Below, piece after piece: positions 2,525-24,057 of a stretch of 24,057 nucleotides of DNA. The stretch comes from a virus: positions 1 through 24,057 of IMG/VR virus record IMGVR_UViG_3300030331_000275; one strand, written 5' to 3'. The notes beneath the pieces were generated by a model. It searched no databases, was not told where the DNA came from, and saw only the letters and a list, made by a program, of their open reading frames with translations. Position 1 is the stretch's first letter, and every line of letters starts with the position of its first letter. A program made the translations under genes and the position numbers.

Positions 2525-2902
2525 CTATGCTAAGTCTCCGTGAATAACGGTATTGTTTTCTGGCATATCATCTACTGCGGATGTGGTTGCGCCATGCAGT
2601 CTAATAGAAGAAGAATTTTTAGTGCCTATAGAAAGTATTCTATTGGAGGCTGACGTGCCTTCTTCTCCGCACATACCCACAGAAGCATAATTATCTGTGT
2701 TCATAGCGTTAGTGTAAGTAATAGTAGTGTCTCCTGTACCATTGTCATCTAGACTAGATACATTTAAAGAATCAAGATTACTCGTTGAACTTGATGTTGT
2801 AAAATTTACCCAAGCCTTCGCACTACCATTGACAACAAACTGCGTATCAAGCGACCCTGCGGTGCTGTGTTCTAGTTGGTCTGCTACAATTTTTCCAGCC
2901 AT
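2525..2902 (-). CDS. GDLA-family tail protein, paralogue 7
   Basis: A 125-residue member of the seven-gene family. It has the family core: SAKAWVNF near residue 27, then DSLNVSSLDDNGTGDTTITY and a TNAMNTDNY motif near 65-73, a variable stretch, and a C-terminal VIHGDLA. In marine phages this core is usually the distal module of long tail fibres; here it stands alone. Role inferred: receptor-binding or fibre-tip subunit. The GGAGAC encoding Gly-Asp of the GDLA end also serves as SD for the following gene at 2524. The start overlaps the stop of paralogue 6 by 1 nt (TAATG). Confidence 0.8.
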   Translation of the reverse strand: MAGKIVADQLEHSTAGSLDTQFVVNGSAKAWVNFTTSSSTSNLDSLNVSSLDDNGTGDTTITYTNAMNTDNYASVGMCGEEGTSASNRILSIGTKNSSSIRLHGATTSAVDDMPENNTVIHGDLA

Positions 2903-3312
2903 TATGCTAAGTCTCCATGAATTGAAAAAGTTCCAACATCAGGGTCTCTAACAGAATTTGAGTGGTTCATAATGTACGTTTTGCACGTTCCTGTTGTTAA
3001 ACCAGTGTTACTTTTGATGGTTACAAAAAGGCCAAAATTTCCAGCATCATCGTGGCAAGCACCGCCTAAAGTGTACGTGCCGTTTGCCATAGAGTTAGTA
3101 AAAGTATGAGTATAATCTCCTGTACCCCCGTCAGACAAACTGCTTTCATTAAAAGAGTCTGTTATAGATGCAGTGCCGCTACCATCAAAATTACACCAAA
3201 CCTTCGCCAACCCCTGCTGGAGATTAGTTGTTGTGCTGTTACCTTCGCCTGTCACAGCAATAGAGCCAGCAGTGCCTGTACCGGTGAGCGTGTTTACAAG
3301 AAGGGTACTCAT
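2902..3312 (-). CDS. GDLA-family tail protein, paralogue 6
   Basis: A 136-residue family member. Its N-terminal region (AGSIAVTGEGN, TTTNLQQGLAK at about 14-37) is nearly identical to that of paralogue 2, 3.4 kb away, including at DNA level, while the distal halves differ. The core DSFNESSLSDGGTGDYTHTF is followed by TNSMANGTY, a variable segment with two cysteines, and the C-terminal SIHGDLA. The shared head with divergent tail points to recombination between cassettes. It overlaps paralogue 5 by 4 nt (ATGA) and paralogue 7 by 1 nt. Likely a receptor-binding or fibre-tip subunit (inference). Confidence 0.82.
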   Translation of the reverse strand: MSTLLVNTLTGTGTAGSIAVTGEGNSTTTNLQQGLAKVWCNFDGSGTASITDSFNESSLSDGGTGDYTHTFTNSMANGTYTLGGACHDDAGNFGLFVTIKSNTGLTTGTCKTYIMNHSNSVRDPDVGTFSIHGDLA

Positions 3313-3704
3313 GCTAGGTCTCCATGAACAATACCGTTAGAAATATGTGTGTCATCAAGACTGCCAGTGTTTTGCTCAGATGTAGCAACAAAAACTTCTC
3401 CAGCGTTATCACCACGAATGACGCTACAATTTCTGTTAGAATTTGTTGCACCGTTATCAGAATTTGTTTCAGAAGCATCCCCACAACAGGACATATTCGT
3501 TGTGTTGCTCATATTGTTTGTTAGAGATATGGTCATTCTTCCGTTTGCGCGGTCATTCAATGAACTGATATTTAGCCCACCAGAAACTAATGTACTGTTA
3601 TTGGTTACGTTAAACAAAGCCTTTGCCGCACTAGCTTTATTCAGTGTAACCGCACCAGTACCAGCCTTATCAGCAATAGTATCTACATTCAATACACTGG
3701 TCAT
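3309..3704 (-). CDS. GDLA-family tail protein, paralogue 5
   Basis: 131 residues from the ATG at 3704. A TTG at 3716 would lengthen it, but the ATG has GGAG at 6-nt spacing and makes the usual ATGA overlap with the preceding fibre gene. The N-terminus (TSVLNVDTIADKAGTGAVT) matches the LxVDTI...G pattern of the family. The core is shortened (ALFNVTNNS, LNISSLNDRANG, TISLTNNMSNT), followed by a Cys-Cys pair, an Asn-rich variable segment and a C-terminal VHGDLA. It lacks the Lys-Ala-Trp of most siblings (KALFN instead). Role as for the rest of the family. Confidence 0.8.
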   Translation of the reverse strand: MTSVLNVDTIADKAGTGAVTLNKASAAKALFNVTNNSTLVSGGLNISSLNDRANGRMTISLTNNMSNTTNMSCCGDASETNSDNGATNSNRNCSVIRGDNAGEVFVATSEQNTGSLDDTHISNGIVHGDLA

Positions 3705-4159
3705 ACGATGCTCCAATACCCATTGACAGTCACGGTTGCAGACTGTGTGATTGGTCCTGCCGATACGCCGTTCTCATCGCTATCAATAGTAATGTCCGCG
3801 CTAATGGTCTGACCGTTCAAACGAATGATGCTGTTGTTACCCTTGAATGGGTAGCGGGTATCACTTTCAGTCTTAGTATACGAACTAGCCACGGCAAACG
3901 TGTCATACACAACCATCTCGACAATGTCATTCAAAGTAGCGGCTGTTACCAAAACAACGCTCGTGCCTGTTGTAGCGGCATAATCAGTTCCGGGCTTGAG
4001 AAGAACGCCGTTCTGATACACATCCATGTACAGACCATCTGTGTAAGTCAGTGTTTTACTGTCACCGTCACTGCCACTAAAGGTAGTCTGACTGGCAGTT
4101 GCTTGATACACAAAGCGATTGCGAACACCAAACTCTGGGGATTTTCCTATGTATGGCAT
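3701..4159 (-). CDS. tail fibre protein with MPYIG N-terminus, 152 aa
   Basis: Begins MPYIGKSPEFG, an N-terminal block I recognise from marine phage tail fibre proteins and shared with the 149-aa gene at 7103-7552 (MPYIGGVPAVN). The next part follows the usual layout of an attachment domain: FVYQATASQTTFSG, TDGLYMDVYQNGVLLKPGTDY, then a beta strand ending DIVEMVVYDTF. The C-terminal 45 residues are a short beta-rich cap (INGQTI-like, ITIDSDENG). It is much shorter than a full fibre, so it may act as an adaptor on which other subunits sit. The last codons, TGG AGC ATC, supply GGAG as SD for paralogue 5. Confidence 0.8.
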   Translation of the reverse strand: MPYIGKSPEFGVRNRFVYQATASQTTFSGSDGDSKTLTYTDGLYMDVYQNGVLLKPGTDYAATTGTSVVLVTAATLNDIVEMVVYDTFAVASSYTKTESDTRYPFKGNNSIIRLNGQTISADITIDSDENGVSAGPITQSATVTVNGYWSIV

Positions 4160-5109: not shown

Positions 5110-5586
5110 TTATGCGGCTACAGTTTTATCAGTGGCTAAGTCTTCACTAATCTTCCAAGCGTTGCGCCACTCTCTTGTTGCTGGAAGCTGTTCTTTCTTG
5201 CATATTACCAGTTTTGGCTTATTACCGCTATCCCAATCACGCCAAACATGTTGAGGGCAGTCTTTCATTATGAGATATTCCAAGGCTTGCTCTTCTGTCA
5301 TAGCCTCAACAGGTTCTGTGTTATGTAAGAGATAGCCACGAGTATGCTTCTTAAAGTCTGGTTCTGCCTCGTCTTTAGCCAGTTCCCAGTAAACCCAAAC
5401 TGGTGGTAGGATACCGCCCTGCAATGCACAAGCCATCCAGTTAGGATCAGGCACAAGTATCTTGGCACACTCGTCTATGCTGTCTTCGTACACCACACGG
5501 TACTCTGACTGATAGGCTTCTAGGTTTTCTTTTGCCCAGCACAGTCTATCCCATAAGTGTGTGCCTTTAAACTCAGGTGTTTGCAT
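5110..5586 (-). CDS. fibre-module protein with chaperone-like C-terminus, 158 aa
   Basis: An aromatic and Cys-containing globular protein (PDPNWMACALQGG, PPVWVYWELAKDE, CPQHVWRDWD). I recognise it as a conserved hypothetical of marine phage tail modules without known function. Residues 133-150 (QLPATREWRNAWKISEDL) align with the start of the P.DR.FREAW domain of the following gene, which suggests a truncated duplicate or an old fusion. Its ATG at 5586 overlaps the stop of paralogue 4 by 1 nt and takes its SD (GGAGAC) from that gene's GDLA codons. Possible fibre assembly factor (inference). Confidence 0.65.
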   Translation of the reverse strand: MQTPEFKGTHLWDRLCWAKENLEAYQSEYRVVYEDSIDECAKILVPDPNWMACALQGGILPPVWVYWELAKDEAEPDFKKHTRGYLLHNTEPVEAMTEEQALEYLIMKDCPQHVWRDWDSGNKPKLVICKKEQLPATREWRNAWKISEDLATDKTVAA

Positions 5587-5966
5587 TATGCCAAGTCTCC
5601 AAAAATTGTTGCATCTCCTATGCCGGGGTCAGTCTGAGTGCCACTATTATTTTCTATATCCATTTCATAATTACTGGTTGTTCTGTTACAAATTCCTGCG
5701 GGATAAAAACTACCAGCATCTGTAGACCCACCTACACTAGAACTTGCAGCATAATCATCATTATTCATATTTGAAGAGAACGCAAAAGTGTAGTTTCCTG
5801 TGCCGTTGTCGGTGTCCGAACTAATGTTGAAAGAATCGCGTATCATGTCGCTGCTAGCCGTGCCAGTACCCTTTACATTAATCCAAGACTTTGCCAACCC
5901 CTCAACAGCATTAGGACCACTAGAGATACCGCTACCAAATTCAGCAAGTTCTGATGCTTTACTCAT
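5586..5966 (-). CDS. GDLA-family tail protein, paralogue 4
   Basis: 126 residues. The N-terminus (MSKASELAEFGSG) differs from the LxVDTI start of its siblings, then GLAKSWINVKGTGTAS leads into the core DSFNISSDTDNGTGNYTFAF and SSNMNNDDY. A variable distal part with one cysteine follows, then the C-terminal IFGDLA. The core fits the marine tail-fibre module most closely of all seven copies. The different N-terminus attached to a standard core again suggests module exchange. Overlaps paralogue 3 by 4 nt (ATGA). Receptor-binding or fibre-tip role inferred. Confidence 0.82.
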   Translation of the reverse strand: MSKASELAEFGSGISSGPNAVEGLAKSWINVKGTGTASSDMIRDSFNISSDTDNGTGNYTFAFSSNMNNDDYAASSSVGGSTDAGSFYPAGICNRTTSNYEMDIENNSGTQTDPGIGDATIFGDLA

Positions 5967-6346
5967 GCTAGATCTCCTGAAGTTTGCATACCATTAAAGG
6001 CTGGATTAGCGTTTGATTGAGATTGAATTTTTACACTGGTTGTTGTGGGGGTATGTATTTGTAAGTCAGATGAGCTATAATTTGTTACACCAGCAGAATT
6101 AGCATTTGTTGCAGTGGTTACACATTGACCATTTGAGGTATTAAAAGCACTACTATATGTCATTGTATTTTGTGTTGAGCTATCATCTGTAATGCTTGAT
6201 ATACTAAAAGAATCATACGGACTACCAGTATCATTCATAGACCAAGAACACCACGCCTTCAAAGTGCCCCCTGCAACAAAGCTCATGCCAATGGAGTTGT
6301 TACCCGCACTATCTTTTAAGGTGTTTACTCTTAGTTCGCTTGCCAT
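5963..6346 (-). CDS. GDLA-family tail protein, paralogue 3
   Basis: 127 residues. Family pattern: ASELRVNTLKDSAGNNS at the N-terminus, LKAWCSWSMNDTG near 29-41, DSFSISSITDDSS core, MTYSSAFNTSNG, variable Thr/Ser/Asn-rich segment, and a C-terminal TSGDLA. It is the most divergent in the distal half and has lost the GTGDYT stretch (SSTQNTMTY instead). The final codons GGA GAT CTA GC still provide GGAGAT as SD for paralogue 4. Overlaps paralogue 2 by 1 nt (TAATG). Confidence 0.8.
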   Translation of the reverse strand: MASELRVNTLKDSAGNNSIGMSFVAGGTLKAWCSWSMNDTGSPYDSFSISSITDDSSTQNTMTYSSAFNTSNGQCVTTATNANSAGVTNYSSSDLQIHTPTTTSVKIQSQSNANPAFNGMQTSGDLA

Positions 6347-6735
6347 TACGCTAAGTCTCCGTGTACTGAACCGTGCCTAATACCATCAGCAGAACTTCCA
6401 GATGAATTTACTGTTCTTAATTTATATGTGCTTGTTGACTCTGCTCTGCCGTGATACGGATAGCTTGTGTGAGCAGTAGACATAACACAAAAATCAGCGG
6501 CGTTCATAACACTAGTCATTGTGTGGTTGCTGTTTCCAGTGCCGATATCTGTAAATCCGCTTGTGTTAAACGAATCACCCGCAATGCTTGATGAACTATC
6601 AGTCACTGATGCAACCCAAGCCTTTGCTAGCCCCTGCTGAAGATTAGTTGTGGTTGAATTGCCTTCACCTGTGACAGCAATAGACCCTGCGGTGGCTACA
6701 CCCGTAATTGTGTCTACTTTAAGTATGCTTGCCAT
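6346..6735 (-). CDS. GDLA-family tail protein, paralogue 2
   Basis: 129 residues. Starts ASILKVDTITGVATAG, followed by SIAVTGEGN and TTTNLQQGLAKAW, nearly identical to paralogue 6. The core is DSFNTSGFTDIGTGNSNHTM with TSVMNAADF. The distal variable segment contains HTSYPYHGRAE, and the C-terminus is SVHGDLA. The shared 5' half with paralogue 6 but different 3' half marks a probable recombination joint after the LAKxW codons. Same inferred receptor-binding or fibre-tip role. Confidence 0.82.
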   Translation of the reverse strand: MASILKVDTITGVATAGSIAVTGEGNSTTTNLQQGLAKAWVASVTDSSSSIAGDSFNTSGFTDIGTGNSNHTMTSVMNAADFCVMSTAHTSYPYHGRAESTSTYKLRTVNSSGSSADGIRHGSVHGDLA

Positions 6736-7106
6736 TATGCTAGGTCTCCAAAAAACGCTATTGAATGTGCAGGATTTGTATCAGTGAGTGTGCCGCCTGA
6801 TGCGGTAACAGAACGAGTAATAAATGAAGATGCACTTGTATCATCAACTGTATGAGTCCGATTATAGCTACTGTCGTGATTGGCAATTAAAGCTGCTACA
6901 GCCAAAGCCGCAGTAAAGGCATTAGTGACTGCAACAGTATTTAATCCGGCAGAACCATCAGTAACACTAGATATGTTTAGCGAAATATCAGAATTGCTAC
7001 TGCCATCAGCCTGTAAGTTTCCTGTTACCTTTGCCGCTCTTTGCTTAGTAAACGTAGCCGCACCGCCAGATGTATTTTGAATTGTATCTGCTTTTAACGT
7101 ACTCAT
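6735..7106 (-). CDS. GDLA-family tail protein, paralogue 1
   Basis: 123 residues, first of the array to be transcribed. Starts STLKADTIQNTSGGAAT. The family KAW is replaced by AAKVTGN, and the core reads LNISSVTDGSAGLNTVAV with TNAFTAALA. The Ala-rich centre and the absence of GTGDYT make it, with paralogue 5, a subtype distinct from the others. C-terminus AFFGDLA. Its ATG overlaps the preceding fibre gene by 4 nt (ATGA). Assignment rests on both ends and the NISS..D core. Confidence 0.78.
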   Translation of the reverse strand: MSTLKADTIQNTSGGAATFTKQRAAKVTGNLQADGSSNSDISLNISSVTDGSAGLNTVAVTNAFTAALAVAALIANHDSSYNRTHTVDDTSASSFITRSVTASGGTLTDTNPAHSIAFFGDLA

Positions 7107-14422: not shown

Positions 14423-14438
14423 GGTCTTACACCTTGCC
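14418..14438 (-). promoter_or_regulatory. hairpin sequestering SD and TTG start of the 225-aa gene
   Basis: On the minus strand GGCAAGGT-GTAAG-ACCTTGCC forms a perfect 8-bp stem with a 5-nt loop. The left arm holds the SD (AAGGTG) and the last codons of the Lys-rich repeat gene. The loop holds its stop codon and the right arm holds the TTG start. No U-tract follows. Combined with a TTG start this would keep translation low unless a ribosome terminating upstream opens the stem (inference). Confidence 0.6.
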
Positions 14439-14723
14439 GCCTTTAGCCATGCCTTTCTTCTTCATCATGCCGCCTCTGGCCATCTTTTGGACCTTGCCGC
14501 CTTTAGCCATGCCTTTCTTCTTCATCATGCCGCCTCTGGCCATCTTCTGGACCTTGCCACCTTTAGCCATGCCCTTCTTCTTCATGCCAACAGCACCACC
14601 TTTTGCATAACCTTTTTTCTTCACCTTGCCACCCTTAGCCATGCCTTTTTTCTTCATGGTAGGGGCCACATTTCCAACAAGGCTAGATGCATACTCATCC
14701 ATTGTCATAAATTCTTTTGCCAT
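14427..14723 (-). CDS. Lys/Gly/Met-rich tandem-repeat protein, 98 aa
   Basis: After a normal 22-residue start (AKEFMTMDEYASSLVGNVAP) the rest is low-complexity and very basic. A MKKKGMAKGGKV core is repeated four times, joined by QKMARGGM or a shorter linker. There are no acidic residues after position 10, so it is very likely DNA- or membrane-binding and unstructured when free. It is a candidate packaged DNA-condensing or internal head protein, by composition and by its place next to other basic proteins. Repeat number probably varies among relatives. Confidence 0.75.
   Translation of the reverse strand: MAKEFMTMDEYASSLVGNVAPTMKKKGMAKGGKVKKKGYAKGGAVGMKKKGMAKGGKVQKMARGGMMKKKGMAKGGKVQKMARGGMMKKKGMAKGGKV
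14431..14658 (-). repeat. 60-bp tandem repeat inside the Lys-rich gene
   Basis: Two nearly identical 60-bp units (14431-14490 and 14491-14550, one visible difference) encode 20 residues each. A third partial copy (14551-14586) and a fourth core copy (14623-14658) share the 36-bp part encoding MKKKGMAKGGKV. The near identity of the first two units indicates recent duplication by slippage or unequal recombination. Confidence 0.9.
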
Positions 14724-20845: not shown

Positions 20846-21358
20846 TTATACCAGTATTAACGCAAAGTCACGCGTTTCTTCATTCCTTCTTAACCAGCCC
20901 TTACCAAAAGTCTCAAACGTCCGGAGACTGCGATAAAATTCTTCGCGCTCCTTAGCCAAATCTTCAATAACGCCCTCTGCGCCTTTGCCGTTTACGGCCG
21001 CAATAGTCAAAGGACCAATAGCCCCGTCCTGTGTAGCGTTCACAACTTTTTGTAAACCACGCGCCGCACGACCCGGACCGCTGTTCACGGCCCAGTCAAA
21101 GGTAGAAAAGTCAACTCCGCCGGGGAGCTCGTCGCCTTTTACCTTGTCCCAGTAAAGATTTTTGTAAATCATCTCTACGTGTTCATCAGGTATATTCTTT
21201 AGCTCCTCGACATCTTCGAGAGGCCGCTCTAGGAAATCAGCATATGTTTTATGTGTAATCCCTTTATTGGTCGCTCCACCCGGATCCTCCGGATGGTCAA
21301 CGAAGCCGCCCTCGTGTTTCAGCACAAGGGCTAAGCTTTTAAAAAAGTTAGCTTCCAT
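20846..21358 (-). CDS. endolysin, GH108-type muramidase, 170 aa
   Basis: Residues 10-33 (ALVLKHEGGFVDHPEDPGGA) contain the GH108 signature with catalytic Glu16 in HEGGF, followed by TNKGITHKTYADFL. YWDKVKGDELPGGVDFSTFD and WAVNSGPGRAARGLQ complete the catalytic domain. DGAIGPLTIAAVNG starts the C-terminal PG-binding-3-like part. It would hydrolyse the glycan strands of host peptidoglycan. There is no signal peptide, so release depends on a holin, and a 3TM holin gene lies immediately upstream, overlapping by 1 nt. Length is normal for the family. Confidence 0.93.
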   Translation of the reverse strand: MEANFFKSLALVLKHEGGFVDHPEDPGGATNKGITHKTYADFLERPLEDVEELKNIPDEHVEMIYKNLYWDKVKGDELPGGVDFSTFDWAVNSGPGRAARGLQKVVNATQDGAIGPLTIAAVNGKGAEGVIEDLAKEREEFYRSLRTFETFGKGWLRRNEETRDFALILV

Positions 21359-21753
21359 TATTTTGTCAAACCTTTTTGTTTTTCATATGTACGGAGTCCA
21401 CCAAGCCCCAACATGCCTAGCAACACGGTCATTAAAGTATCCATATCGAAAGCTGGGTAGGCCGGTGGAGTAAGACCAAGATACGCCGTCACCACATCAG
21501 CAATAGGAATAGCAAGAAAATGCACAAAGAGAGCAAGTCCACAAGTCCAACCAACGAAAGGTCTCCATCCAGCTACAAAAATATTTTTCGACTTCGCTTC
21601 CTCAGCGTTAATTGCAAGCTGTCCCTTTGCCAGCTCCTGCGCGTGTCGTTCTGCCATTGTCGCAATCTCATGCGCCAACTCATTCTTCTTATCTTTGTCT
21701 TCAACGAACTTACCTATCAGATCTGTTGCTGGACCTATTAACGCCTGTAACAT
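21358..21753 (-). CDS. 3TM holin, GTA_holin_3TM-like, 131 aa
   Basis: An amphipathic N-terminal helical region (residues 1-55) with DKDKKNELAHEIATMAERHA is followed by membrane segments at about 59-94 (FVAGWRPFVGWTCGLALFVH, FLAIPIADVVTAYLG) and 106-121 (LMTVLLGMLGLGGLR) and a basic tail. GWRPFVGWTCG is the signature of the 3TM holin family (also found in gene transfer agents). It would form the inner-membrane lesion that frees the adjacent endolysin. Overlaps the endolysin gene by 1 nt. Confidence 0.88.
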   Translation of the reverse strand: MLQALIGPATDLIGKFVEDKDKKNELAHEIATMAERHAQELAKGQLAINAEEAKSKNIFVAGWRPFVGWTCGLALFVHFLAIPIADVVTAYLGLTPPAYPAFDMDTLMTVLLGMLGLGGLRTYEKQKGLTK

Positions 21754-21756
21754 GAG

Positions 21757-21966
21757 TTACTCCTCAATAAAATCTAAAATTTCTCCGTTTAACATCATAA
21801 CTTTATATTCTTTGCAGGACCATTTCTGATCAAAGTTGTTTGTGTGACCCACGTTGCGTTTAATCTTGCGCCTCACAGACAAGCATTCGCCAAGAGATTT
21901 ATAGGGAGTATACTCTATGCGTTCCCCACCCATCACAAGCATTAACACAAACGTAACTTCAACCAC
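21757..21966 (-). CDS. small protein with hydrophobic N-terminus, 69 aa, GTG start
   Basis: Starts with GTG at 21966, overlapping the upstream gene by 8 nt. The N-terminal VEVTFVLMLVMGGERIEYTP is short and hydrophobic, followed by SLGECLSVRRKIKRN and WSCKEYKVMML with two cysteines that could form a disulphide, suggesting export to the periplasm. Similar in plan to the 72-aa protein at 22354-22572. Function unknown; the lysis neighbourhood makes a periplasmic lysis accessory or exclusion role possible. Confidence 0.6.
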   Translation of the reverse strand: MVEVTFVLMLVMGGERIEYTPYKSLGECLSVRRKIKRNVGHTNNFDQKWSCKEYKVMMLNGEILDFIEE

Positions 21967-22354
21967 CGTTTCGTATCTTTTCTAAATTTTCTTCTATTGT
22001 TGTTATTCTTTTTTCGTAAAACTCTAATGTCAACTTTTGTTGTTGGTCATAGGGGGCTTTACCGTCTTCTATTTGAGATTGAAGCTTTTCAAATTCTAAA
22101 GCTAAGTGCTCAATTAGCATGAATTGCTCAGAATCAGCCGGGAGGCTTCCCATCTCTCCTCTCGGCCACTTTATTCTAAACTCTGTATTGTGTTCGACAT
22201 CAGATTCCATCATTGTGATGTTGGTTTCAATTTGGTTTAAGCGTTCTATAATTCCAAAATATGCCCAAGTAGCAAGGGATGCCGCTGCGACCATAGATAT
22301 GATGTTGCGTAACGGAAGAGCTACTTCAGTATTTTCGTTAAGCTTTGCAGGCAT
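21959..22354 (-). CDS. single-pass membrane protein with coiled coil, 131 aa
   Basis: One membrane segment at about residues 16-36 (RNIISMVAAASLATWAYFGI) is followed by heptad helices (IERLNQIETNITMMESDVEH). A conserved-looking middle (FRIKWPRGEMGSLPADSEQF) and a second coiled coil at about 80-128 follow. With the N-terminus in the cytoplasm this is the layout of an inner-membrane spanin-like or pinholin-accessory protein, although no lipoprotein partner is visible. I know it as a conserved hypothetical of marine phages. Overlaps the upstream gene by 1 nt (TAATG). Confidence 0.7.
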   Translation of the reverse strand: MPAKLNENTEVALPLRNIISMVAAASLATWAYFGIIERLNQIETNITMMESDVEHNTEFRIKWPRGEMGSLPADSEQFMLIEHLALEFEKLQSQIEDGKAPYDQQQKLTLEFYEKRITTIEENLEKIRNGG

Positions 22355-22572
22355 TAATCACACACTCTTTTGCCAGCACAATCTTTAGGAAAACACTGGA
22401 TATTCATTTTGTAAAACTGATTCTTATAGTTAGCTTTCCACATATCCTTTTGTAACAAACGGTAACACTGTTCTTGTGTAAAAGATTGCTGCAATACTAT
22501 CTGATTGCCAACGTACATCCATTCGGCACCTGTATGTCCCCACATGGATATAACAAGAACAAACTCTTTCAT
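22354..22572 (-). CDS. small Cys-rich secreted-like protein, 72 aa
   Basis: The N-terminus EFVLVISMWGHTGAEWMYVG is hydrophobic without a typical charged signal, then QSFTQEQCYRLLQKD and a C-terminal half with Cys60, Cys65 and Cys71 (IQCFPKDCAGKRVCD). Four cysteines in 72 residues suggest disulphides and a periplasmic location. The F.LVISMWG...W.Y.GN start is one I recognise from marine phages. Function unknown. Coupled on both sides (ATGA upstream, TAATG downstream). Confidence 0.65.
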   Translation of the reverse strand: MKEFVLVISMWGHTGAEWMYVGNQIVLQQSFTQEQCYRLLQKDMWKANYKNQFYKMNIQCFPKDCAGKRVCD

Positions 22573-22775
22573 TTTTCAGAATTTAACCATACTGCTAGCG
22601 AACCTGTCATGGCACCCGTGACGACTGAAATTAGCGAAGCCTGCTGAGTTGTCAAATCCGGCTGTGAAAGTGCCCATTCTATGCACCTGATATACACGCC
22701 CGTCATGCACAACATCATAAATCTAGGCAGTATCTTTAGTTCTAATAGCTTTCTTGCTACGTCTTCCGCACTCAT
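22569..22775 (-). CDS. two-TM holin-like small membrane protein, 68 aa
   Basis: Two predicted membrane helices, at about residues 15-34 (LPRFMMLCMTGVYIRCIEWA) and 46-64 (ASLISVVTGAMTGSLAVWL), joined by a polar turn (SQPDLTTQQ), with charged ends (N-terminal SAEDVARKLLELK, C-terminal NSEK). That is class II holin architecture. Since a 3TM holin is encoded next to the endolysin, this could be a second holin, an antiholin or a pinholin. Overlaps both neighbours (TAATG and ATGA). Confidence 0.68.
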   Translation of the reverse strand: MSAEDVARKLLELKILPRFMMLCMTGVYIRCIEWALSQPDLTTQQASLISVVTGAMTGSLAVWLNSEK

Positions 22776-23221
22776 TAGTCAAACATCCCCTTCAACCATG
22801 CCACCCAAGCAACAAGTCCGGCCACCATTGAAGCAACTAACAGACCTGCTGCGCCTAAACCAATCGCTTCTGAGAGTTCTGCTCTTCTGCGTCTAGCCAA
22901 CTCCTCTCGCACCCTGCGTTCTTTTCTAGCATCTGCCTGAAATTTTTGCCAATCATGCCAAAGACCGGGCCGACCCGTGTATATCATTATCTGTTTTAAC
23001 TGTTGTTCCTTTTGACGAATGCTTTCCAGAGCCATAAACTCTTCAAGATCAGATGAACGGACTCCTGATTTCTTTTTCTTATTACCTTTTCGTTGCAGCT
23101 CTTCTTTGGCTATAACGAAATCCGATATGGCCTTTCCTGCTTTGGCTATATCCCCAGTATTCTGGACAGCCTTCTTGATAATTGTAAAGGCCGCATTTGC
23201 AGCCGCCAGTTCCGCTAAAAT
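22775..23221 (-). CDS. membrane-anchored helical protein, 148 aa, probable ATT start
   Basis: An ATG at 23035 would give only 86 residues, but the same frame stays open and clearly protein-like upstream to 23221. The added 62 residues are (I)LAELAAANAAFTIIKKAVQN, TGDIAKAGKAISDFVIAKEE and LQRKGNKKKKSGVRSSDLEE, which belong to the start of a family I recall from marine phages (conserved LAELAAANAAF). No ATG, GTG or TTG is available there. ATT at 23221 has AAAGGTGA 6 nt upstream and begins 2 nt after the portal stop. One membrane helix lies at about 120-143 (GLGAAGLLVASMVAGLVAWV). Lysis or membrane role inferred. Confidence 0.7.
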   Translation of the reverse strand: MLAELAAANAAFTIIKKAVQNTGDIAKAGKAISDFVIAKEELQRKGNKKKKSGVRSSDLEEFMALESIRQKEQQLKQIMIYTGRPGLWHDWQKFQADARKERRVREELARRRRAELSEAIGLGAAGLLVASMVAGLVAWVAWLKGMFD

Positions 23222-23223
23222 TT

Positions 23224-24057
23224 TTAATCACCTTTCTGTTTGATAAATTCACGCCGCTCTGCTGCATCTATGCGAGCCTGTGTTTGACGTTCTTGGCTTG
23301 CCAAGCGTTGCTGGAACTGGTCTGCTCTCATTCTCTGGTTTTGAGCATCAAGGTTTAGCTTAGCTGCGTCGTTCTGAGCATCAGCCTGTTCTGCCTGTGC
23401 CCTTATCTGAAGCTCTTGTTCTTTCAACTGAACCAGAGGATCTGGGCCTTGGCCAGACACCTGCTGTGACAACTGTTTCAACGCCTGCATACCCTCTGCA
23501 ACAAACTGTGCAGTAAGGCTTTCTATCGCCAACATTTCTTCTTCTGTTGCAGGTTGCCCGCCATCTGCCTGACGTTGTTGAATAAACTCAACAGCAGCCC
23601 TCTCTCTTGCAGCTATTCTTACATGTTCCATAATGTGCTTTTGTAAAGCTATACCTACCGCAGGCATACCGGCTACCATTGGTGTAGAACCAAAGACCAT
23701 ATGCGCCATGATGTGCGCTTCATGCTCCTGACCTTCAAAAGCTTTGAGCTGTATCATGTCCAAAACATCTATGTTTTCTTGTGCGGGGTCTTTTGGTTGC
23801 GGCTCTTCATCCGGCACACGACGCATGATACGGTCAGTGTCTTTAACACCAAGAGCATCATACATGTCCCTATACACTTCATACATGTTGTGCATCTCTG
23901 GTGCTGCACCAGCAAGCTGTAGCTTAGTTTGCGCCAGAGCTATGCGCTGTGCCTGAGAGAACACATTCGGGTCAGATACGGGTATAACATCTACACGGTC
24001 ATCAAAATCTCTTGCTTTTACAGAAGCTTCTGCACCCTCTACAGAATAAGGGTACTC
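23224..24057 (-). CDS. portal protein, C-terminal part (5' end outside window)
   Basis: 278 residues are visible, open to the window edge, so the start is not seen. VEGAEASVKARDFDDRVDVI, PVSDPNVFSQAQRIALAQTK, LQLAGAAPEMHNMYEVYRDM and YDALGVKD form the clip and crown region of portal proteins of marine short-tailed phages (DFDDRVDV.PVSDPN..S.AQR is diagnostic to me). The remainder is a long Gln/Ala-rich helical barrel-like tail (LKEQELQIRAQAEQADAQND and following). The portal dodecamer forms the DNA gateway at one capsid vertex. The stop TAA at 23224 lies in the leader of the next gene. Confidence 0.85.
   Translation of the reverse strand, partial: EYPYSVEGAEASVKARDFDDRVDVIPVSDPNVFSQAQRIALAQTKLQLAGAAPEMHNMYEVYRDMYDALGVKDTDRIMRRVPDEEPQPKDPAQENIDVLDMIQLKAFEGQEHEAHIMAHMVFGSTPMVAGMPAVGIALQKHIMEHVRIAARERAAVEFIQQRQADGGQPATEEEMLAIESLTAQFVAEGMQALKQLSQQVSGQGPDPLVQLKEQELQIRAQAEQADAQNDAAKLNLDAQNQRMRADQFQQRLASQERQTQARIDAAERREFIKQKGD
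23228..23235 (-). promoter_or_regulatory. strong Shine-Dalgarno supporting the ATT start at 23221
   Basis: AAAGGTGA on the minus strand closely matches the anti-SD complement. It is followed by TTAAAA and then ATT in the LAELAAANAAF frame, an ideal 6-nt spacing. A GTG inside this SD (23229-23231) opens the +1-related other frame and is not itself preceded by an SD. Confidence 0.6.

Follow-up and report, generated by a model that had tools for sequence, protein, structure and literature searches.

Evidence for a conserved, gene-specific AUU start codon at the head of an exchanged gene module in marine phages

Introduction

Where does translation start in a gene whose reading frame opens without ATG, GTG or TTG? 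This question is raised by a linear virus DNA of 24,057 bases, the whole of which is referred to here as the window. Its minus strand holds an open frame of 148 codons (ILAELAAANAAF..., 22775-23221) with the motif LAELAAANAAF. The original prediction was that this frame lacks a canonical start and begins with ATT. This is correct up to an internal methionine: the earliest ATG, GTG or TTG in the frame is the ATG at 23035. Therefore, standard ORF lists give only an 86-residue product for this locus. Two recoding or error scenarios had been proposed beside the ATT start, and initiation at the internal methionine has to be weighed as well.

In the literature consulted, natural AUU starts have been described for a very small number of genes, namely infC, pcnB and cvfC1 (PMC5472188, PMC9410913, PMC13009471). 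No example of a phage gene with a natural AUU start was found in the open-access literature searched.

Results

The start region

In the start region the minus strand reads ...AAACAGAAAGGTGATTAAAAATTTTAGCGGAACTG.... The ATT (23219..23221) lies 6 nt downstream of AAAGGTGA and 2 nt after the TAA stop (23226-23224) of the preceding gene, exactly as predicted. The Shine-Dalgarno (SD) sequence AGGTGAT (23227..23233, minus strand) is located 5-6 nt before the ATT within the last codons of that gene, and its predicted duplex with the anti-SD has an energy of -10.8 kcal/mol. The upstream gene, of which the 3' part is present (23224..24057, minus strand), was assigned to portal proteins (PHROG 1216, E 2.4e-8; 46% identity to the portal of Phage DSL-LC04). 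A TGA two codons before the ATT closes the LAELAAANAAF frame upstream. The run next to the start had been described as A5/T5; it consists of A5 followed by T4.

The start column in homologous genes

Homologues were collected by three routes. In IMG/VR, 80 loci with ATG, TTG, GTG or ATT in the start column were retrieved at the protein level, a second retrieval used a DNA pattern in which the third base of the start codon was left open as ATH, and a third pattern, leaving the start codon untouched, added more homologues. In 173 distinct homologous genes the start column was occupied by ATG (135), ATT (23), TTG (13) or GTG (2) and by no other codon; these totals are no estimate of the natural frequency of ATT, because the retrieval routes were mixed and one of them sought ATH. 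The absence of ATC and ATA from the start column is unaffected by this mixture. With ATT, ATC or ATA allowed, the ATH scan of viral contigs yielded 31 contigs from 29 datasets, and all 31 carried ATT. For comparison, ATT makes up 47% of the internal isoleucine codons of the same genes (ATT 101, ATA 92, ATC 21).

Thus, the predicted ATT start was borne out by the start codons of the homologues, with which it is column-exact. As in AUU-initiated genes of the infC and pcnB kind, AUU stands where homologues have ATG, GTG or TTG, and no alternative canonical start is at hand: an in-frame stop is found 2-13 codons upstream in all ATT contexts, and none of them has a canonical in-frame start within 15 codons upstream of the ATT. 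A gene start in the same column is annotated in the three phage isolates examined, Pelagibacter phage Mosig and Roseobacter phages CRP-361 and CRP-3. The ATT form was found in no isolate; all contigs carrying it are metagenome assemblies. Eight relatives were detected in bacterial genome contigs, in MAGs, and the start column could be read in four of them (L235-L237 and L242), with ATG in each.

The original prediction had also offered a one-base error, an extra A in the A5 run that hides a true GTG start at 23231. With one A fewer, the frame would indeed read GTG-Ile-Lys-Ile-Leu-Ala-Glu-Leu. Against this, contigs from other metagenomes (L004, L006, L106, L109 and L110) have the identical A5T4 junction, and five other contexts, which have no portal junction, show ATT at the same column. 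Since the junction recurs in independent contigs, an assembly or sequencing error is excluded for practical purposes.

Initiation solely at the ATG at 23033..23035 (residue 63), with the upstream part untranslated, would make use of the first canonical in-frame start and give the 86-residue protein of the truncated call. Within the ATT group, however, dN/dS is 0.036 for codons 2-62 and 0.054 for the rest of the gene. This strong purifying selection indicates that the codons before Met 23035 are translated as protein. Furthermore, 78 diverse homologues all share the pattern LAEL.AAN.A without change, and the isolate phages are annotated from residue 1. A start at Met 23035 alone is therefore very improbable.

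Upstream contexts and ribosome binding

The ATT form is found behind six unrelated upstream contexts: the portal C-terminus, AAGAGGCGAAA, TAGGGAGATTTTAAA, AAAGGGGTAAGAAA, TAGGGAGGCAGTT and TAAGGGAGTCAAAA. Each of the six has its own SD at 5-9 nt from the ATT, as expected for AUU-initiated genes. The SD word is AGGTGAT in the window type and GAGG, GGAG, AAGG(GG), GGAGG or AAGG(GAG) in the others. An SD-like word was present 4-10 nt before only 19% of the internal in-frame ATT codons of the same loci; at this rate, six of six contexts would have an SD by chance with P about 5e-5. ATT contexts are predicted to pair more strongly with the end of the 16S rRNA (median -8.8 kcal/mol) than ATG contexts (median -6.2 kcal/mol), with P 0.006, or 0.014 when the six contexts are counted once each. 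RNA folding of the start region did not separate the two forms; ATG and ATT versions alike gave a hairpin further down, within the coding sequence.

The comparison of contexts also bears on the second proposed alternative, in which ribosomes would initiate at GTG 23231 and then make a programmed +1 shift on AAAAATTTT. The portal context does hold this GTG together with a slippery-looking run. For a programmed +1 frameshift, an upstream start and a slippery site conserved in all members would be expected; they were found in the portal context only. The other five ATT contexts lack the GTG and A5T4 arrangement but keep the ATT column, and the homologues with ATG and TTG need no shift. Because GTG 23231 is confined to the portal context, the frameshift does not explain the other contexts and fails as a general explanation; for the window, too, we rate it as highly unlikely.

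In order to see how far AUU is used elsewhere in these phages, gene starts were projected from ATG-starting homologues in about 230 sequences including the window (1.69 Mb). A non-canonical start column was strongly backed, by 118-128 homologues, for the gene described here and for no other. A general use of AUU starts was rejected: as far as checked, the other rows of this survey were antisense or overlapping spurious frames or had few votes.

The protein and its neighbours

The 148-residue product (22775..23221, minus strand) is predicted to be helical. In the AlphaFold2 model (mean pLDDT 86.6) helices span residues 2-22, 26-47, 58-82 and 87-143. A C-terminal transmembrane helix is predicted for residues 119-143 (22793..22867, minus strand; Kyte-Doolittle up to 2.15), and such a segment is predicted in all 173 homologues. 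The arginine-rich stretch just before it suggests a tail anchor with the N-terminus inside and the C-terminus outside. The protein matches PHROG 32327, a family of unknown function, with E 4.5e-10 over 142 residues. There was no match in Pfam, and nothing below E 0.5 in a fold search against the PDB; good matches of the model in BFVD were uncharacterised viral proteins only. A known lysis family (holin or spanin) was found neither in Pfam nor in PHROG function nor among PDB folds.

Downstream on the same strand follows a gene for a small membrane protein of 68 aa (22569..22775), whose start overlaps the stop of the AUU gene (TAATG). A relative of this gene comes directly after the AUU gene in all 23 ATT loci. 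In 13 of the 16 distinct stop junctions listed, the stop is overlapped by a start (TAATG; ATGA in L104), the exceptions being L023, L024 and L094. Next are a 72-aa gene (22354..22572), which overlaps the 68-aa gene by 4 nt and is present in 8 of the 23 ATT loci, a 131-aa gene with a weak holin-like match (21959..22354; PHROG 20984) and a 69-aa gene (21757..21966), overlapping the latter by 8 nt. These are followed, also on the minus strand, by a holin of the GTA_holin_3TM family (21358..21753; Pfam PF11351, E 5.5e-18) and an endolysin of glycosyl hydrolase family 108, GH108 (20846..21358; Pfam PF05838, E 2.6e-28). As the 3TM holin and the GH108 endolysin follow in the window, a link of the AUU gene to lysis is possible. 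Within the available flanks, a relative of the 3TM holin was located near only 3 of the 23 ATT loci.

Two further observations were made elsewhere on the minus strand of the window. At 2525-3716 and 5586-7106, at least seven consecutive or near-consecutive genes encode proteins of 123-136 residues ending in GDLA. Most of these genes overlap or abut, and they look like a tandem paralogue family, perhaps tail or fibre related. A strongly basic protein of 98 residues with repeated KKKGMAKGGKV units is encoded at 14427-14723.

Module exchange

When the window was compared with loci of other contexts, DNA similarity started at -3 to -6 from the start codon and extended downstream for at most about 1.5 kb. 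Upstream of this edge the DNA is unrelated or strongly diverged between the contexts compared. In two further context types the portal protein is 37-54% identical to that of the window and the AUU protein 92-99%. From the position of the edge and the diverged portals we conclude that a module is exchanged whose left boundary is at the ATT. Only 3-6 nt ahead of the AUU belong to the shared DNA, and the SD thus comes from whichever phage receives the module.

The window (21740-23225) shares a module of roughly 1.5 kb, from the AUU gene to the 69-aa gene, with L002, L005, L016 and L029. DNA identity over this module is mostly 74-87%, with 37-54% identity of the adjoining portal proteins. Similar modules beside diverged portals indicate exchange between lineages. 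In L018 and L041, which belong to the TTG lineage, the module is rearranged such that the LAEL gene comes after the 68-aa gene and those that follow it; both parts show about 80% DNA identity to the window.

In a codon tree calculated without codon 1, five changes between ATT and other starts were counted, of which at least two are forced by well-supported branches. One of the five concerns L094, a very long branch with only 57% identity and with other sequence around its ATT. L023 and L024 (ATT) pair with L022 (ATG). Given the poor resolution of the tree and likely recombination of the module, the independent origins of ATT can be put no more closely than two (forced) to five (by parsimony).

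Discussion

The comparison of dozens of virus fragments shows that the AUU start, in a gene which many marine viruses of bacteria carry, is genuine and conserved and did not arise by a sequencing error. Very probably, these phages use SD-positioned AUU initiation as a conserved and gene-specific trait in part of a marine-phage family, at the head of an exchanged module. The SD is observed upstream of the AUU at 23221-23219 and would position the ribosome there. The AUU would then be read by the initiator tRNA at a reduced rate, as in infC, pcnB and cvfC1. Thereby the gene of a putative C-tail-anchored membrane protein would head a horizontally exchanged module of overlapping genes near lysis genes.

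Comparable starts are known from bacteria. The infC gene of Escherichia coli has a natural AUU start at an ordinary ribosome site like the phage gene (PMC5472188, PMC9410913), but it encodes IF3 and uses AUU for feedback, whereas a membrane protein is encoded here. For pcnB of E. coli, the AUU start is described as limiting a protein other than IF3 (Binns and Masters 2002, in the account of PMC9410913). According to this account, limitation was measured for this bacterial chromosomal gene; for the phage gene it is inferred. Conserved starts with strong SD pairing, as in the phage gene, were reported for cvfC1 (AUU) and ccpN (AUA) of Staphylococcus aureus (PMC13009471). Those are non-phage genes studied by retapamulin ribosome profiling and reporters, while the phage start was deduced by sequence comparison. 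The sigR gene of Streptomyces is likewise a case of a non-canonical start outside infC which gene callers missed; its start is GTC, not ATT, and repression by IF3 was demonstrated (PMC5472188). PHROG 32327 covers the AUU protein as a sequence family and is silent on start codons; most of the homologues found here start with ATG.

What the AUU does for the phage can be discussed with less certainty. The role that we consider most likely, with an even chance, is that of a throttle which would hold the membrane protein at a low level compared with the product of the virion gene before it. Expression of the 68-aa membrane protein, whose gene overlaps the stop of the AUU gene, may likewise be held low. 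The lowering effect of AUU is inferred from work on E. coli, S. aureus and other bacteria and not on the hosts of these phages. Sensitivity of the AUU gene to IF3, as originally predicted, would be plausible because IF3 discriminates against such codons (PMC5472188). The limitation of a protein of the lysis region, also part of that prediction, may likewise apply; holin and endolysin genes are close by in the window. A phage-encoded IF3 as partner was looked for by its IF3_C domain, which was absent from 11 related phage contigs, many of them fragments. A more far-reaching view is rather doubtful: here the AUU would regulate a mobile membrane-protein module from its edge and travel with it. 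Translation would depend on the level of IF3 or on the translational state of the host, would rise as initiation fidelity drops late in infection, and would work in any genome that supplies an SD.

Alternatively, AUU may be used without a regulatory role, as a tolerated mutation or by-product of recombination whose function is sustained by a good SD together with, in the window, ribosomes that terminate 2 nt before it. We regard this as a serious possibility, if somewhat less probable than limited expression. With shared DNA reaching only 3-6 nt beyond the ATT on the upstream side, the original start region may have been lost when the module was captured; versions with ATG, TTG and GTG are nearby in the tree, and the portal stop 2 nt away is well placed for re-initiation. 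On the other hand, ATT was kept over a synonymous divergence of about 0.5 per site, although ATG is one base change away, and in several ATT contexts no gene ends directly beside the start. Non-ATG starts are over-represented in the family of the AUU gene (29 of 157, against 102 of 2033 in other genes of the same loci), a comparison which is biased upward because the set is partly ATT-enriched and the comparison genes came from ATG queries.

AUU starts as such were already known; new is their recurrent, mobile and gene-specific use in phages. The comparative evidence for AUU initiation is unusually clean, with one column, six contexts and neither ATC nor ATA. Since callers limited to ATG, GTG and TTG cut 62 residues from the protein described here, the annotation of viral metagenomes may overlook AUU starts systematically. 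Furthermore, the gene offers a natural test case for the question why a phage retains an inefficient start codon.
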